This document shows positions 9,661-24,893 of a DNA stretch of 64,000 nt, one piece after another. The notes under the pieces are model-generated. The model did not search any database. It was given only the letters and a program-made list of their open reading frames with translations, and was not told where the DNA came from. Origin of the DNA: Clostridia bacterium (lineage in GTDB: Bacteria; Bacillota; Clostridia; Acetivibrionales; STF1-152); NCBI GenBank assembly GCA_028280575.1, contig JANQLN010000057.1, forward strand, positions 1 through 64,000, written 5' to 3'. Position 1 is the stretch's first letter. Each line of letters begins with the position of its first letter. The translations under genes and the position numbers were made by a program.

Positions 9661-9818
9661 CCCACAACTACTTATTTTTATATGTAGATGGCAAAGCTGC
9701 CGGAACAGGAAGAATTAGACGTAGTTCAAGTGAAATCTTAAAAGCTAAAGGGGTTGGCAATTTGGGATATGGTATAGCTAAATCAGAAAGAGGAAAAGGT
9801 TATGGATATACCAATTAA
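9661..9818 (+). pseudogene. GNAT acetyltransferase fragment
   Basis: reading ...YLFLYVDGKAAGTGRIRRSSSEILKAKGVGNLGYGIAKSERGKGYGYTN*; GNLGYGIxxSERGKGYG is the GNAT acetyl-CoA motif; no upstream remainder seen. Confidence 0.6.
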
Positions 9819-10440
9819 TAGTCAGAAGTTCAATGAATTGATAGCTTTGAAGGAAAAGGTTACGAAGGAAGTAGAGCAAAGTTTAGTGATCCCTGAAAAC
9901 AAAAGGAGAAATAATAATCTGTTCTTATTTTTTGGCATACCAGGAAGTGGTAAGAGTACTCTTGCAAAAGTTATTGCTGAAGTAATTCCATGTGTTTATC
10001 TTTCCAGCGACATGATAGCATTAAATCATAATTTGGATCAAACAAGAAACTATTACTGGACATTTGAGATTATGAATGACTTGGCCAATAAGTACTTACA
10101 TGCAGGATATAATGTAATTGTTGATAGTAACTCTGATAGGTATTCAATAAGAAAAGAATTATATGAAATGGCATTTCGGCATAATGCAAAACCTTTTTGT
10201 TTTTGGGTAAAGACAGATATTAGTACCGTAAAAAGAAGGCAAAATATTAGAAAAATCTATAAATCTACATTAAGAAGCAAGTTTCTTTTTTATGTTAATT
10301 CAAATGAAATAGAAAAGTACCATAAAGACCTTGAAACTCCAAGAGAAGATGAGAATATTTTTACTATAGATGGTACAAAAGGCTTATTGAATCAACTATA
10401 CCCAATTGAGGAGATAAGAGGTTTAATTGATTCTAAATAA
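9802..10440 (+). CDS. P-loop kinase / AAA-type ATPase (zeta-toxin/PNK-like fold)
   Basis: Walker A GIPGSGKST; VDSNSDRYSIRKELYEMAF; 212 aa. Confidence 0.75.
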   Translation: MDIPINSQKFNELIALKEKVTKEVEQSLVIPENKRRNNNLFLFFGIPGSGKSTLAKVIAEVIPCVYLSSDMIALNHNLDQTRNYYWTFEIMNDLANKYLHAGYNVIVDSNSDRYSIRKELYEMAFRHNAKPFCFWVKTDISTVKRRQNIRKIYKSTLRSKFLFYVNSNEIEKYHKDLETPREDENIFTIDGTKGLLNQLYPIEEIRGLIDSK

Positions 10441-10734: not shown

Positions 10735-13344
10735 TTATAACCTTGGGTCTACTGGCTCGCTTTCCAATGCGAGGACACCAAATACACACTCATGCACCCT
10801 ATATAACGGTTCATTCCTTGTAAACCTTTCAAGGGCTTCCACTCCAAGGGCATATTCTCTTAATGCAAGTGAACGCTTTTTACCCAAAGATCGTTTTTTT
10901 AGCTTCTTCATGTTTTTATCTAGCATATATTCCGGTCCGTATATAATTCTGAGGTATTCTCTTCCCCTGCATTTTACAGCAGGCTGAATTAACCCATTTT
11001 CATTTTTTACTGTAAAATCCAATGGCTTTACAACCATTCCTTCTCCACCATTTTGGGTTAATCCGTACCACCAGTCTACCCCACCTTTTATACTGTCATC
11101 ATTAGTTACATCCACCTCCATAAAATTTGTAGCCATTAACAGGTTACTACCTGCTTTACATATCTCATTTATTTCATTCATATGCCACAGATGTTCTTTG
11201 TTTATAAATGTCCTTCCTTCAACTGCCATTATATGAAATGGTGCAAGCTTGTAGCCATGCAATGAATTCACAGGCCAGCAATACTTTCTGTATGCTTCAA
11301 CGTACTTATTAAGCATTTCCATCTTTTCCTGATACCTGGCTGCAAGCTCTTTTATGTCCATATTTTTACCTGAGGTTTCATTTGAAACTTCAAAGCATAT
11401 TAATTCTCTTCCTGCTGCTTCATTCAACAGAGGAACTACCTGCCTTAATGACTGCACCCCTGCTGTACCCACAGCTGAATACTGTTCTTTTAGCAAAAGT
11501 TGTGCCTTGGCAGACCATGGCATCAATTCACAATCAAGACATACCCAATCTGTTTCAAACTTTTCCCAGAATTCTGACTGGGTTAAGGTATCTACTACTT
11601 CATCAATAAAAGCATTTTTCAGGTCTTCTTCTGAAAAAAATTCTCTCCCTGTCCTTGTATAGCAAATCCCCTTTTGTCCATCTGCAGCTTTAAATGTTTT
11701 ACTGGCTGCCTCTTCATCTCTACATGCTATTACAACAGCCCTAGAACCCATATGCTTTTCCTCACACACTACTCTGTCAATTCCTCTTTGCCTGTAATAT
11801 GAAAAAGCTTCTTCAGGATGTTCAAGGTATTCCTGTATACCAGATGTCTCACAGGGAGACATTGTCGGTGGAAGATATATAAGCCAATGAGGGTCTGCAA
11901 CAAACCTGCTCATAACCTCTATAGCCGCAGCAGAATTTTGCTCGGGTATAGTGATATTCCTCCTTAATCTGGTCGATAATATTTTCTTGCCGGATACATC
12001 TGTAATATCAAGCATGTCATTATCCCTGTCAGGTTGTTCATATGCTTTTTCGGTAACAGATTCAAAAGGCTTTACAGGCTCATAATATTTATATAGTGCC
12101 TCTACACTCACGAGTTCCTTTTCTGGATACCTTAATGCTGTCAGTTTCCCTCCAAATACACATCCTGTATCAATATCAATTGTATTATTAATCCACTCTA
12201 TTTCTGTAACAGGCGTATGCCCGTAAACAACGATAGCACTTCCCCTATATTCGTCAGCCCAATTATACCTTACAGGCAGTCCAAACTCATCGGTTTCCCC
12301 GGTAGTCTCACCAAATAAGGCAAATTCCCGAACCTTTCCAGAACCTCTTCCCTGCAAACTCTCTTTCATACCCCCATGTGCAACTACCAGATTACCATCA
12401 TCAAAAATATAATGACTGATAAGAGAGTTAATAAATTCCTTTACATGCCCCAGGAATTTATCAGGCTGCCCTTCAAGCTGTTCTATTGTTCTATCAAGAC
12501 CATGCTTTAGCTCTACATTTTTGCCATTAAGCTTTTTAAGCAGTTTAATATCATGATTTCCAGGAACACAAAATGCTGATTCACTATTTACCATGGACAT
12601 AACAATTTTTAATACCTTTAACGAATCGGGGCCCCTATCAGTAAGGTCTCCAAGAAATACAGCCTTTCTACCTTCTGGATGGGCTATATTATACCCAAAC
12701 CCTTCATAATCAAATTCCTTTTCTTCTATAATATATCCCATTTTTGTAAGAAGCATTTCAAGTTCACCAGCGCACCCATGTATATCTCCAATTATGTCAA
12801 ATGGTCCTTTTATATGCCTTAGGTTATTCCATAATGGCTGCCTCTCAATTTCCAGGTTGCTAACATCTTCTTCATTCGTGAAGGTATAAATATACCTAAA
12901 ACCTTCTTTTTTCAGACCTCTAATTGATTTTCTCAAATATTGCTTATGCTGCTTTATTACATGCTTGCTAAAACTTCTATCTTCTCTTTTTTCATTTCTG
13001 TCCTGGCACAGCCTTTCTGACATATCCAACACTATGGCAACCGGCAGGCAGTGGTACTGTCTTGCCAATTGTATTAGCGGCTTTCTTGCCGATGGCTGTA
13101 CATTGGTTGCATCTATAACAGTAAGTTTACCCGCCTCAAGCCTTTTTGCCGCAATAAAGTGCAATACCTCGAATGCCGCCTTTGTAGCAGTCTGGTCATT
13201 TTCATTATCAGAAACCAATCCTCTGCAAAAATCTGAAGACAATACCTCGGTAGGTCTAAAATATTTCTTTGCAAATGTTGACTTACCTGACCCTGACGGT
13301 CCTATTAAAACAACAAGTGATAATTCAGGTATTTTCAAATTCAT
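10735..13344 (-). CDS. pnkp: polynucleotide kinase-phosphatase-ligase (bacterial Pnkp)
   Basis: GPSGSGKST kinase; GDIHGCAGE, GDLTDRGPDS, PGNHD phosphatase; EEKHMGSRAVV ligase-type motif; 869 aa. Confidence 0.95.
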   Translation of the reverse strand: MNLKIPELSLVVLIGPSGSGKSTFAKKYFRPTEVLSSDFCRGLVSDNENDQTATKAAFEVLHFIAAKRLEAGKLTVIDATNVQPSARKPLIQLARQYHCLPVAIVLDMSERLCQDRNEKREDRSFSKHVIKQHKQYLRKSIRGLKKEGFRYIYTFTNEEDVSNLEIERQPLWNNLRHIKGPFDIIGDIHGCAGELEMLLTKMGYIIEEKEFDYEGFGYNIAHPEGRKAVFLGDLTDRGPDSLKVLKIVMSMVNSESAFCVPGNHDIKLLKKLNGKNVELKHGLDRTIEQLEGQPDKFLGHVKEFINSLISHYIFDDGNLVVAHGGMKESLQGRGSGKVREFALFGETTGETDEFGLPVRYNWADEYRGSAIVVYGHTPVTEIEWINNTIDIDTGCVFGGKLTALRYPEKELVSVEALYKYYEPVKPFESVTEKAYEQPDRDNDMLDITDVSGKKILSTRLRRNITIPEQNSAAAIEVMSRFVADPHWLIYLPPTMSPCETSGIQEYLEHPEEAFSYYRQRGIDRVVCEEKHMGSRAVVIACRDEEAASKTFKAADGQKGICYTRTGREFFSEEDLKNAFIDEVVDTLTQSEFWEKFETDWVCLDCELMPWSAKAQLLLKEQYSAVGTAGVQSLRQVVPLLNEAAGRELICFEVSNETSGKNMDIKELAARYQEKMEMLNKYVEAYRKYCWPVNSLHGYKLAPFHIMAVEGRTFINKEHLWHMNEINEICKAGSNLLMATNFMEVDVTNDDSIKGGVDWWYGLTQNGGEGMVVKPLDFTVKNENGLIQPAVKCRGREYLRIIYGPEYMLDKNMKKLKKRSLGKKRSLALREYALGVEALERFTRNEPLYRVHECVFGVLALESEPVDPRL

Positions 13345-14711
13345 CTCTTAAACACCCCCATTTGTGTTGGAGTTATCTGCCTGCTATCCTTATCCCCAAT
13401 ATCAATAAATCTCACACTATACCTATATTTAATACAAATATCTAAACACCAGTTTTGAAACTGGTCTCCTGTCCATTCAAATCGATGGTCACGGTGCCTC
13501 ATATTACCTTCCATAAGGTTTTCATAGTTCTTGTTATAGTCAAAATTTGGTGTAGTAATAACCACAACCCTTGGTCTCGCATATCCAAAAACAATTTTCT
13601 CAAATGCAGCCAATCTACTAATATCAAAATGTTCTATAACCTCAATAACCGTAGCTGCATCATACCCTGAAAACCTCTTATCCCTGTACATAAGAGAGCC
13701 TTGAAACAGATTTATCCTCTCTCTCTTAAATTCAGGCACATCATCAAGTCTTAGCCTGTCCCTTGCCCTTTCAAGCGCTGTTACCGATACATCCATACCG
13801 GCTATATTGTTAAATTGTCTATCGCTTTGCAGCATTTTTAAAAGCTTGCCTTCACCACAACCCAAATCTATAACTGAGTTTATGCCTTCGCTTTTTAAGA
13901 CTGCCATAACAGTCCCCAGCCTCTGCTGATTCAGATTCAAAGCTTCCTCTGACACAGGCCTTTCTTCCCGCTCTTCTGTTTCTTCCTCTGAAGTCAATAC
14001 ATCAAAGGCTATATTTGCAAAGCTTTTCTTATAGTTTAAATATCTATTTATAATCATACTCTTGTCTGGATGCTCTGCAAGCCACTCCTGACCATGGTTC
14101 AGTAGCTTTTCCACTTCATCTTTGCCTATCCAGTAATGCTTTTTATTGTCCAGTACAGGAAGCAGAATATATACATGGTTGAGTAGCTGTTTCAAAGTAC
14201 AATTATTTTCAAGGTTTATGGTGTAGTATGGGCTTTTGCCCCACTCTTCAAATTTATCATCAAGCATATAGCTTGTAATGGCTATACTATAACCAAGAGG
14301 CTCAAAGAGCTTTCTAATGAACTCTTCCCCTCCTTTACACTTAACCATTGATATAACAGCTTTTAACCTCATTTTTTTATCAACAAGCTCAGGCTTTTTT
14401 TTGCATCTTCCAGCCATAGCAGAACTATAAACCTGTGACAATGCAACACTTAAAAATGAAGATGACACATAGGGTCTATCGTTTACATAATCAAACAATC
14501 CCATGTATGCCTTTTTTCTAGTTCTAGCCAAGTCCAGGGAATTAATATCCAACATAAGCACTGCTGTACATTTTTTATCATTTGCAACAGGATAAAACAC
14601 ATGTGCTTTACCAAATGTCAGTTCATGTGTCTGGGGCCTTTGTGGATTTTTATGGAGCAGATATCCCAAATTTGTAGCCGGTTTCTCTGTAGATGTTACT
14701 GTTAAAAACAT
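13341..14711 (-). CDS. hen1: 3'-terminal RNA ribose 2'-O-methyltransferase Hen1
   Basis: SAM motif VIDLGCGEGKLLKML; EVIEHFD; TTPNFDYN...RHRDHRFEWT; 4-bp overlap with pnkp. Confidence 0.95.
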   Translation of the reverse strand: MFLTVTSTEKPATNLGYLLHKNPQRPQTHELTFGKAHVFYPVANDKKCTAVLMLDINSLDLARTRKKAYMGLFDYVNDRPYVSSSFLSVALSQVYSSAMAGRCKKKPELVDKKMRLKAVISMVKCKGGEEFIRKLFEPLGYSIAITSYMLDDKFEEWGKSPYYTINLENNCTLKQLLNHVYILLPVLDNKKHYWIGKDEVEKLLNHGQEWLAEHPDKSMIINRYLNYKKSFANIAFDVLTSEEETEEREERPVSEEALNLNQQRLGTVMAVLKSEGINSVIDLGCGEGKLLKMLQSDRQFNNIAGMDVSVTALERARDRLRLDDVPEFKRERINLFQGSLMYRDKRFSGYDAATVIEVIEHFDISRLAAFEKIVFGYARPRVVVITTPNFDYNKNYENLMEGNMRHRDHRFEWTGDQFQNWCLDICIKYRYSVRFIDIGDKDSRQITPTQMGVFKR

Positions 14712-15283: not shown

Positions 15284-15556
15284 TTAATTTTCGTCAATAA
15301 TACCTGACTCGAATATGAATGGTTTGTTAGATCTATTATTATTCCCACTAATATTTTGCCTTCTTTTTACAGTACTAATATCTGTCTTTATCCAAAAACA
15401 AAAAGAGGTTGCATTATGCTGAAATGCCATTTCATATAACTCTTTTCTTGTTGAATATCTATCAGAGTTACTATCAACAATTACATTATATCCTTCATAT
15501 AAATACTTATTGGCCAAGTCATTCATAATCTCAAATGTCCATTTCAAACTACACAA
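15284..15556 (-). pseudogene. truncated inverted copy of the P-loop kinase at 9802-10440
   Basis: WTFEIMNDLANKYLYEGYNVIVDSNSDRYSTRKELYEMAFQHNA...DISTVKRRQNI nearly identical to residues 86-149 of the 212-aa protein; Walker A missing. Confidence 0.85.
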
Positions 15557-20459: not shown

Positions 20460-20951
20460 TTGTTTCGACCTCTTTTCTTAATTACAATGATAAACTTATT
20501 ATAAAGTCTTCCCCAAAGGAAGAGTCAAGAGGGTAATACTGCTTTCTATGGAAAATATAAATACTCTTTGTAAGTCATCATTGACAAGTAGCTCCTATTA
20601 TAACATAACTCTCCTCCAAAAAAATATAGTCTATGTCTCTTGGCTTATTTTCCTTTGCAATAACACTATACTTTCACAATAACTCGAGTTGATGCCATTG
20701 ACGTCTTTGGCTGATTTTTTAACCCTTGCATTTGAGGGAACATATCCAATATGATTTTAACAACTTCTTCAGAAATGACGTGCGTGGGAACATGTCAATA
20801 AAAAACCACATTATGTTTTATACTGCAAAAGTGTGAGTTCTCATATAGTTTGAAATTTTCTGAACGTAAAATCAACGTTTGAGACCATGTTTTATGACTA
20901 AGTTTGAAAAGTTTTCTCAAATAGTTTGAAAAAAACTTTTAAGGAATTGAA

Positions 20952-21629
20952 CTTTATGGTCTATATTATAACTCTGCAAAGCTTAACAGCGTATGTATAC
21001 AATTCAATGAAGAAAATAATGGAAGCAGAGAAAAATTTAAAGTAAAATATGATCCTCATAATCTCTCAAAAATATATGTTTATGATCATTTAATAAATCA
21101 ACAGTGGATTGAAGTTCCTGCTAAATGCCAGGAATATGCAGATGGCTTAACTGAATGGGAACACAATGAAATAAGAAAGCATGCTAGGATAAAATTTGGT
21201 GAGGTTGATATAATAGGTCTTGCCAAATCAAAATCACTTATAAGAAAAAAAATAGATGCATTTTCCGGATATTCAAAAAAACAAATTGCCAAAGCTAAGA
21301 GGATTGACTCATCAAATGAAATAGCAGATTGTAACTTAACTAATAAGATTGAGTTGAAACTTGTTGATGAAAAAAAAGAACCCTTTAAAAATACAGGTTA
21401 TGTAATATGTGAAAAATCTCAAAACAAAGTTTCAAGTGAGATTTTTAACAAAGAGGATAAGATAATAACTCTTGACTATGTTAATATACCTAAAGACTCT
21501 AAAAAAAGTAAAAAAGGCACCAATAAAAATAAAACTTTAATCGCTGAAAGTTTTATACTGGAAGCTGATCAAGACTTGACTGAAAGTGATTTAAATGGAT
21601 TTAACTTTATCAGCGAGGAGAGAGAATAA
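20952..21629 (+). pseudogene. TnsB/TniA transposase, C-terminal remnant
   Basis: frame upstream of ORF 21354 stays open: GLYYNSAKLNSVCIQFNEENNGSREKFKVKYDPHNLSKIYVYDHLINQQWIEVPAKCQEYADGLTEWEHNEIRKHAR..., Mu-type transposase C-terminal barrel; catalytic DDE domain absent. Confidence 0.82.
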
Positions 21630-22613
21630 GTGTTTATTGAAGATAATTTTAACATAGAAGCTACATATAAAAAGATGCATTTTTTAAAACACTTGACAAT
21701 AAAATATCCTCTTATGCAATCCATCCATAATTGTCTATACAAATGTCAACTGAGCACCCTTTATTCTGATACTCCTGAATGCATGAGTATTCTAGGCCCT
21801 TCCCGTTCAGGCAAAAGCAAGTTAGTAAAATCCTATTTTAAAAAATTTCCTGATAAGAGAACACCAGAAGGAATAATAAAAAAGATTTTGTATTGCACTG
21901 TTCCAATCCCTGGTGTTAGAGGAGCTTTAGGTCCTGCAATGCTTGAATCTTTAAAAGATCCTTTTTACAAGAAAAAACAATTAAGTGCAGATAGAAATTT
22001 TAGAATAATTGAATTGATAAAAAAATGTAAAGTTGAATTAATTATAATAGATGAAATTCAACACATTGTAGATAGAAATAATAACCGTTTACTTAGAGAA
22101 TCTGCTGATTGGTTTAAATATATACTAGAACAGACCAATGTATCTTTTGTTTTTGTAGGGCTAAAAGAATCTAAAAAAATATTCTGGGGAAATGAACAAT
22201 TGAGAGCAAGAGTACGTAATAACTTTAATACATCAGCCTTTACATATTCTAAAGAATACCGGGCTTTTCTTTATAGCCTTGATTTGTCTTTATCAAAAAT
22301 GGGTCTCAAAATATCCAACTTAGCAGATCCAGATACTGCAAAAAGAATATACTTAGCTTCTCAAGGGCTCATTGGTAACATAATGACTCTAATTAAAGAA
22401 GCTGTATTCATCACTTTACAAAAAAATCAATCTGTATTGACATTTGATAACTTATTTGAGAGCTATGAGAATAAATTAACTGATATCTATTCAAAAAATC
22501 CTTTTGATATCCAGTTTAGTGTTTCCAAAGCAATGCAGGAGTTTACGCCATTGCCAAAAATTGATTCAGAACTATCTGGGCCAATGACAAATAATCGAAT
22601 AAATACAAGATGA
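21630..22613 (+). CDS. tniB: TniB/TnsC-like AAA ATPase
   Basis: Walker A GPSRSGKSK; IIDEIQHI Walker B; immediately follows transposase remnant. Confidence 0.9.
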   Translation: MFIEDNFNIEATYKKMHFLKHLTIKYPLMQSIHNCLYKCQLSTLYSDTPECMSILGPSRSGKSKLVKSYFKKFPDKRTPEGIIKKILYCTVPIPGVRGALGPAMLESLKDPFYKKKQLSADRNFRIIELIKKCKVELIIIDEIQHIVDRNNNRLLRESADWFKYILEQTNVSFVFVGLKESKKIFWGNEQLRARVRNNFNTSAFTYSKEYRAFLYSLDLSLSKMGLKISNLADPDTAKRIYLASQGLIGNIMTLIKEAVFITLQKNQSVLTFDNLFESYENKLTDIYSKNPFDIQFSVSKAMQEFTPLPKIDSELSGPMTNNRINTR

Positions 22614-22781
22614 AAATAATTATAAAACTGATTTATAATTATTTGATAAAATATTGATTGGTAATTATTAATCTATTGACTTAAAATTAACAATGATATA
22701 CCATTAATTCACAATGGTAGTATATTACTGACTAAACAATTTATAAATTAATTATGTAATAATAAATCTAAGGAAGTGTAA

Positions 22782-23237
22782 TTGATGAGTAATTGGTATA
22801 ATGTAAATAACCAATCTGATATAGATTATTTAATAAAGATTTATGGTGGGTTTCATGATGCTTGTATAACAGAACTTCGTTATATGAGTGGAGCTGATGT
22901 AAATGAGAATTTATCAATGGGGTTTGGAGAATCTATAGATAGAAAACTATTTGTGATATTTAAAAGGCAATGGAAACCGATAAAAATTGAATTATTGTTT
23001 CAAGGAATGCGTCAAATGAATGTTGCTGGTTGGCAAAATTGCTATTTTTGTGATATATTTGATTGCTATCTTGCGCTACATAATGACTTGATAAAAGGAA
23101 GAGATGATAGATTAATTGTATGGGCAGATAATGCTGGATTTAATCCGAAGGAGCTTTACGAAAGGGATAGTCTTTGTGAGCCAATAACAACATATGTAAT
23201 TTCAGAAAAATTAAAATGGAGGTTACTTGAAAATTAA
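22782..23237 (+). CDS. hypothetical cargo protein
   Basis: 151 aa; GGFHDACITELRYMSGADVNENLSM; inside the transposon; preceded by AAGGAAG. Confidence 0.65.
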   Translation: MMSNWYNVNNQSDIDYLIKIYGGFHDACITELRYMSGADVNENLSMGFGESIDRKLFVIFKRQWKPIKIELLFQGMRQMNVAGWQNCYFCDIFDCYLALHNDLIKGRDDRLIVWADNAGFNPKELYERDSLCEPITTYVISEKLKWRLLEN

Positions 23238-23407
23238 CTTGAGTCATAGAGTATAATGTAAAGTAAGTTTGACATACAATCTTTATAAAAAGAAAACTAT
23301 TAATTACAATTATTTCATTTAAATGTAATGTTGATAATATCAATAATTTGGTATATATTGGTTCTTCAGTGAAACTTTTTTTAACAAATAACATTCGTTA
23401 TATATTA

Positions 23408-24718
23408 TTATGTATAACCTATTGCTTTATAGAAATTATTCACCTCAATTTTCCTAATATATATTGACTTGAGTCCAAAATGAGAAATATCAATTTTAAT
23501 ATCTATGCTAAATAAAGATAACCAATGGAGAAAAATGTAAAATGTATTTATATCATAATTTTTAAAATATTCTTTTTTAACTTCAAATAAGTTTACATAA
23601 TTAGAAATATCTTTATCAATTAATAAATCACCTTTATCTATGAACTTCTTAAAAAAAGCAGTTAAATACTCTATTTGAGAATATGCTTTTTCGGTTTTTT
23701 TTATTTTATAATTTATTTTAAGTAATTTGGCCAAATCTATATCAAAGACAAGCCTAGCCCATTTATGTATACTATACCTTCCTCTGTAACTATTATTATA
23801 TTCAAAATTTTTGATGAAATAATATGATGTGAATCGTGCTTTATAAGAAAGCCAGCATTCTTTACTGATGAATTTTAAATCCATAAATTGATTTATTATT
23901 TTAAATTTATACTTTCCAATATAGTTATCTAGAAACATACCAAATTTTGTAGACCAATCATTTATAATTTCATATATATATCTATATGTGTGAAATCTGC
24001 CTTTAATTGTATTATCGTCAATAAGATTATTAAATTTTATAGAACCGTAATTATCATTAATAAGTTTGTCCAAAACTAATACTAATTTTAGAAATTCAAT
24101 ATCATTGCATTTAAAAGGCAGTACAGGTCTCTTTATTTTTTCAGAAATGTTATATGCACTATTAATATATTGCTGTAATTTTATAATGGAAGATATCCTA
24201 CAATATTCTGGTTTGCTAGCTGCTAAATACTTTCTACAATAACAAATCCCACTTGTTAAATTTTTAGAAAAAACCTTATAACCGCAATGTGTACATTTTT
24301 CAATTAAAGTAGTATTATGCTTAACACAGAACTTATTTAAAGCAAGCATCCACGAAAGTCTTTGATAGTTGTTTTCTTTCAAACATAATGGACAAAATTT
24401 TACAGAACAAGAATCAAATCCATTAAATGGATATTGGGATTTTATTTCTTTATTTTTATACCAAGACCCAAAAATGTATTTGTGAATTGTCATGTTATAG
24501 ACTTGCTCCACTTTTAAGTTTGCTATATGTGCTATTCTTTTTATTGTTTCAATGTCCTTAATACGATTAATAGTATGATTATCTGTATTTATACGAATAT
24601 TAACATGACTTTTTATCCAAAAATAAGGTACACTATTCTCAATAGCTAATCTATTTAAATAGCTTGCCAAACTTTCATCTTCATATGGTTTAGGATGAAA
24701 AAGAAGTTTATCACTCAT
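23408..24718 (-). CDS. tniQ: TniQ/TnsD-like target-selection protein
   Basis: FHPKPYEDESLASYLNRLA TniQ N-terminus; CPLC...CVKH...CTHCGY zinc motif. Confidence 0.9.
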   Translation of the reverse strand: MSDKLLFHPKPYEDESLASYLNRLAIENSVPYFWIKSHVNIRINTDNHTINRIKDIETIKRIAHIANLKVEQVYNMTIHKYIFGSWYKNKEIKSQYPFNGFDSCSVKFCPLCLKENNYQRLSWMLALNKFCVKHNTTLIEKCTHCGYKVFSKNLTSGICYCRKYLAASKPEYCRISSIIKLQQYINSAYNISEKIKRPVLPFKCNDIEFLKLVLVLDKLINDNYGSIKFNNLIDDNTIKGRFHTYRYIYEIINDWSTKFGMFLDNYIGKYKFKIINQFMDLKFISKECWLSYKARFTSYYFIKNFEYNNSYRGRYSIHKWARLVFDIDLAKLLKINYKIKKTEKAYSQIEYLTAFFKKFIDKGDLLIDKDISNYVNLFEVKKEYFKNYDINTFYIFLHWLSLFSIDIKIDISHFGLKSIYIRKIEVNNFYKAIGYT

Positions 24719-24774
24719 ATTATTCCTCTAGTAAAATTTTATAAGATTATAGAATCTAATCTTATAAAAAAACC

Positions 24775-24865
24775 GAGGCTGGAAATCAGCCCCAATTATT
24801 TCAAACTTTCTGCAAATTTTTTTCACACTTTTTGCAAATAATTTCAAACTTTTTGCAAACTCACA
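24775..24865 (-). mobile_element. right end of the Tn7-like element
   Basis: reverse complement TGTGAGTTTGCAAAAAGTTTGAAATTATTTGCAAAAAGTGTGAAAAAAATTTGCAGAAAGTTTGAAAT: three iterated motifs. Confidence 0.85.
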
Positions 24866-24893
24866 GCAAAAGATAACACCATTATTATATTGC

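Follow-up and report, generated by a model that had tools for sequence, protein, structure and literature searches.

Tn7 and all related elements are described as generating a target duplication of 5 bp, and in Tn7 the TnsB-binding sites lie close together in the end that precedes the transposition genes and are spread out in the other (PMC11406308). In the ShCAST system, TnsC is bound by the C-terminal hook of TnsB, and C-terminal fragments of TnsB are reported not to stimulate disassembly of the TnsC filament (PMC9371665). We analysed a 64,000-nucleotide stretch of DNA from a Clostridia bacterium (hereafter the window), for which an earlier note had proposed a complete-looking Tn7/Tn5053-like element with a 7-bp flanking duplication. 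Its assignment to a Tn7-like element with a flanking duplication is supported by our analysis. The anatomy of the locus is well supported, and we consider it probable that the locus is a defective, non-autonomous and rearranged Tn7-like transposon that arose via insertion, inversion and deletion.

The element spans positions 20832-24865 (approximately 4 kb), with termini TGTGAGTT (20832-20839) and AACTCACA (24858-24865) and three TnsB-site motifs at each end. At the left end, AGTTTGAAA motifs are present at 20847, 20901 and 20923 on the forward strand. On the reverse strand of the right end they are found at 24842-24850 and 24799-24807, and the middle copy (24821-24829) reads AGTGTGAAA; the three iterated motifs per end that had been described are therefore present, one of them with a mismatch. 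Exact copies of the arrangement TGTGAGTT-N7-AGTTTGAAA are confined, within the whole 4.35-Mb genome, to 17704, 20832 and, on the reverse strand, 24865. As judged by the spacing of TnsB sites, the two ends are of unequal type: an extended forward-strand end, here termed L2 (20832-20938), has loosely spaced sites at offsets 1, 55 and 77, and a compact reverse-strand end, R (24799-24865), consists of the reverse complement of TGTGAGTT and sites at offsets 1, 22 and 44. The locus thus has the TGT...ACA ends of Tn7-like elements, with several TnsB sites lying close together at one end and apart at the other. Copies of GCAAAAG abut both ends exactly (20825-20831 at L2 and 24866-24872 at R), so the inverted ends and their abutting heptamer are confirmed in the sequence as the earlier note had them. 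The probability that a 7-bp repeat would abut two random positions is approximately 1.6e-4 across the window and 1e-4 locally; the heptamer itself is about twofold over-represented in the window (33 occurrences against 15 expected from shuffles). The GC content is 0.24-0.30 within the element and 0.33-0.39 outside.

Domain matches bear out the gene list given previously, namely the C-terminus of TnsB, a TniB/TnsC-type ATPase, a 151-aa ORF and an oppositely oriented tniQ; tnsC, the 151-aa ORF and tniQ are all intact. The tnsB remnant (20943-21629, forward strand; partial PF09299) comprises only the C-terminal barrel domain and the C-terminal tail. It aligns with the 723-aa TnsB of an element in the Bacillota MAG BP5.bin78 (JAJXWJ010000039.1; hereafter L066) from approximately residue 503, beyond the DDE motifs, and the DDE catalytic domain is thus lost. 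Most of the remnant is probably not translated, because its 228 open codons include no ATG, GTG or TTG before codon 137. The tnsC gene (21630-22613, forward strand, 327 aa; PF05621, E 5e-21) begins with a GTG that follows the Shine-Dalgarno-like AGGAGAG, and its product is identified as a TnsC/TniB AAA+ regulator by PF05621, by a profile match to VchTnsC and by its position in a phylogenetic tree. The 151-aa ORF (22785-23237, forward strand), a possible cargo gene without functional assignment, belongs to no family: it gave no match in Pfam, NCBIfam, PADLOC or the PDB, and has a single homologue (45% identity) on a Subdoligranulum plasmid. Finally, tniQ (23408-24718, reverse strand, 436 aa; PF06527, E 1e-19) reads inward from the compact end and encodes a TniQ/TnsD-type target selector. 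A resolvase gene, which in Tn5053/Tn402 (TniABQ-R) elements accompanies a transposase without TnsA, was not found in the element. Likewise, no homologue of the TnsA endonuclease gene was found in the window; because tnsA is present in all of the nearest relatives examined, we read its absence as a probable loss. Elsewhere in the genome there is no further TnsB C-terminal domain (Mu-transpos_C) and no further TnsC. Since tnsA and the DDE part of tnsB are missing, the description as complete-looking is not supported: the element is defective and is predicted to be unable to cut or join DNA by itself.

The element is most closely related to Tn7-like transposons with the gene set tnsA-tnsB-tnsC-tniQ, which occur in Bacillota, cyanobacteria and other groups. 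A scan of genomes with a TnsC profile yielded 79 loci, with a best identity of 34%. A phylogeny of 82 TnsC proteins places the window TnsC as sister to that of L066 (support 98/94), both on long branches, with the pair adjoining a Bacillaceae/Paenibacillaceae group inside the Bacillota Tn7-like group. The pairing rests on these long branches; the ends confirm the kinship with L066 independently of the tree. L066 carries TGTGAGATTTCAAATAGTTTGAG and repeated TTTCTCAAACTATTTGAAA sites, and the ends of the cyanobacterial elements read TGTnGGTTyGCAnAyAAGnTGAAA. Closer relatives were sought more widely. Neither a TnsC peptide scan of GTDB genomes nor a TniQ scan of viral contigs returned any, the TnsC profile found nothing in viral contigs, and phages yielded neither TnsC nor TniQ. 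Only weak matches were obtained from 391 class-level genomes (TnsC) and 58 order-level genomes (TniQ), and the L066 TnsB had no close relative among 227 genomes of its own order. The Tn7 part of the earlier label is thus retained, and the Tn5053 part fits less well, given that tnsA is present in the closest relatives and that the TnsC profile matches Tn6677/Tn7 TnsC.

Ten relatives have asymmetric ends (L030, L031, L060, L062, L066, L073, L078, L097, L110 and L111), and in these we compared end type with gene order. In all ten, the compact end (sites at approximately 1/22/44) lies on the tnsA side with the genes reading away from it, and the extended end (approximately 1/55/77/109) lies on the far side, some sites being under the score threshold in a few relatives. 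A cyanobacterial subgroup of elements of approximately 4929 bp (L064:6822-11750, L069:6821-11750 and L071:922-5850) has symmetric ends, each with sites at 1/57/111, and lacks a flanking repeat. In the window, the extended end adjoins the tnsB remnant and the compact end adjoins tniQ; the tnsB remnant and tnsC read away from the loosely spaced end and are thus reversed relative to the end types, whereas tniQ keeps its usual place. An element on a Niallia circulans plasmid likewise has a tniQ that reads inward beside its compact end, and in L066 the first tniQ lies upstream of tnsA and has the same direction. Because tniQ normally lies beside the compact end in the Bacillota relatives, the convergent tniQ appears best explained as the product of an internal inversion of the tnsB remnant and tnsC together with a deletion. 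One inversion plus deletion of tnsA and the 5' part of tnsB would explain the gene order, the junction at approximately 20940 and the convergence. The convergent tniQ, which had been called unusual, is accordingly a real arrangement, with tniQ itself in its normal place.

These observations suggest the following history. An ancestor with the order compact end, tniQ, tnsA, tnsB, tnsC, cargo and extended end would have entered the interval that separates a merR-type gene from the 3' end of glgD, giving rise to the flanking GCAAAAG. The site before insertion would have read ...TTTTATACTGCAAAAGATAACACC..., with a single GCAAAAG between TTTTATACT and ATAACACC. Either before or after this event, a segment that began within tnsB and reached the inner boundary of the extended end would have been inverted, and tnsA and the 5' two thirds of tnsB would have been deleted; the order of these events is inferred. 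Both ends, intact and of the correct types, would remain together with tnsC and tniQ, and movement would be possible only if TnsA and TnsB that recognize these ends were supplied in trans. The locus thereby points to a route of decay in which the target-selection genes outlasted the transposase.

The TnsB tail, TnsC and TniQ could instead form a selected module that inhibits related transposons or confers immunity to them, or that serves as a helper borrowing TnsA and TnsB. The remnant is stop-free over its whole length, with 4-19% stops in the other frames, its tail keeps a D-L-x-G-[F/W] motif common to the relatives, tnsC has its own Shine-Dalgarno-like sequence, and the ShCAST hook provides a precedent for contact between such a tail and TnsC (PMC9371665). 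However, most of the remnant is without a usual start codon, only one case is at hand, the open frame is equally well explained by recent decay, and the C-terminal fragments inactive in filament disassembly (PMC9371665) also speak against a module. We therefore regard selection for such a function as improbable, and decay of a rearranged transposon as the preferred reading.

The 7-bp repeat, which the earlier note had called atypical, is unusual with respect to both the literature, which gives 5 bp, and the element's own relatives, which have 4 or 5 bp. Abutting repeats of 4-5 bp were found in 6 of 15 end pairs of relatives, against 0.11 pairs of at least 4 bp expected by chance: two pairs have 5-bp repeats (AAGTA and TCCAG) and four have 4-bp repeats (ATGT, GTCA, GTAA and AAAG). 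Near-identical elements can differ in this respect, as in the Niallia plasmid (TTAAT, 5 bp) and Bacillus sp. B1-b2 (AATA, 4 bp). Across L031, L064, L066, L073, L078, L111 and L171-L174, 4-bp abutting repeats are at least as common as 5-bp ones. An abutting 4-bp repeat is not explained by a point mutation in a 5-bp one; it would need the loss of a base. We looked for empty sites in two ways. Order-level relatives allowed no alignment at the junction (glgD is approximately 69% conserved), and a scan of plasmids for the empty site of the Niallia element found none. Tn552 makes duplications of 6-7 bp; confirmation of this length was sought in the literature and not found.

The heptamer could still conceal a conventional duplication, if the true duplicated sequence were the 5-bp CAAAA, with one extra base (G...G) outside TGTGAGTT on each side and the outermost G a chance match. 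The arithmetic fits, as the locus can be written G-CAAAA-G TGTGAGTT ... AACTCACA G-CAAAA-G, but two coincidental matches (approximately 1/16) are required. Moreover, the 5-bp repeats of L031, L111 and the Niallia plasmid touch TGT directly, and a solitary second end in the window, described below, is the same as L2 from the T onward but is preceded by A rather than G. We thus consider a hidden 5-bp duplication unlikely, and read GCAAAAG as a putative 7-bp target duplication. A broader proposal, that TnsB of this lineage breaks the 5-bp rule by joining the ends with a varying stagger (4 or 5 bp in relatives, 7 bp in the window) and that the L2-R element moved non-autonomously with only tnsC and tniQ, is one that we advance tentatively and with considerable doubt. 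A constant 5-bp stagger has been presented as characteristic of Tn7 and all of its relatives; if the repeats do represent target duplications, this stagger has more flexibility than has been supposed, and boundary finding based on 5 bp would overlook elements.

The solitary end, L1 (17704-17810, forward strand), is a second end of the extended type, in the same orientation as L2 and 91% identical to it over 107 bp; the first 52 bp and the binding sites of the two are identical, and the spacer has diverged. L1 is a bona fide extended end in the correct orientation, and the genome has a single compact end, R. It is thus conceivable that a larger element of 7.16 kb extends from L1 (17704) to R (24865), carrying the merR-type gene and ORF379 as its cargo and enclosing L2. 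We consider this very improbable: the flanking repeat is 0 bp for L1-R against 7 bp for L2-R, and the DNA between L1 and L2 (GC 0.32-0.36) is host-like, unlike that of the element. A compact partner for L1 was found nowhere in the genome. Because L1-R has no flanking repeat and the L1-L2 DNA is host-like in composition, L1 is probably the scar left by a separate, related insertion, and the element itself is best taken as L2-R. A resemblance between the L1 and R flanks (GCAACAAGATAAC/GCAAAAGATAAC) was not significant, as 22% of random pairs score equally high. Relatives, too, can have multiple or abutting ends, as in L064 and on a Fredinandcohnia contig with two ends 4 bp apart. At L180:5646-5651, a compact end and an extended end from two related elements are separated by 4 bp (CTAC), which points to either tandem insertion or a joined junction.

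Between the glgD stop codon and the compact end downstream of it are 28 bp (24866-24893), an arrangement that resembles the placement of the Tn7 compact end just downstream of glmS. We place little weight on a possible glgD target because this is a single case, and L066 and the cyanobacterial elements are located at sites other than glgD. Elsewhere in the window, a large ORF resembling a Pnkp kinase/phosphatase/ligase is located beside a Hen1-type RNA repair methyltransferase (10735-14711; Hen1_L, E 5e-103). This pair is flanked by a kinase-like ORF (9802-10440) and a 90-aa ORF (15284-15556) that resembles a truncated copy of it.

Among described systems, the best solved-structure match to the TnsC profile is VchTnsC of Tn6677, a type I-F3 CAST (E 8.5e-66). 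Tn6677 is CRISPR-guided, whereas the window element holds no Cas gene among its ORFs, no Rfam match and no CRISPR-like array in a repeat scan, and so does not have the features of a CRISPR-associated transposon. Compact cyanobacterial Tn7-like elements, such as that of Allocoleopsis pMIC7113.04 (L031), share the TGTCGGTTTGCACATAAGTTGAAA ends and the layout of the window element, with 32-33% identity in TnsC; L031 differs in having a complete tnsA-tnsB-tnsC-tniQ set in one direction and a 5-bp repeat, AAGTA. The Niallia circulans plasmid element (NZ_CP053316.1, 11969-41840) is a member of the TnsC group that is sister to the window's and likewise has a compact end followed by an inward-reading tniQ, but it is approximately 30 kb in length and carries arsenic cargo, intact tnsABC and the 5-bp repeat TTAAT. 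The closest counterpart found is L066, which shares the site core CAAATAGTTTGA, the TGTGAG end and both end types, with compact 22-bp and extended 55-bp site spacing, and whose TnsB and TniQ are the best homologues of the TnsB remnant (37.5%) and the window TniQ (26%), its TnsC having 34% identity. Unlike the window element, L066 is 12 kb in length, has tnsA, a full tnsB and two tniQ genes, with its genes reading away from the compact end, and is flanked by the 4-bp repeat AAAG. The window element is thus a member of a sparse Tn7-like lineage and, apart from its 7-base repeat, is ordinary in kind.
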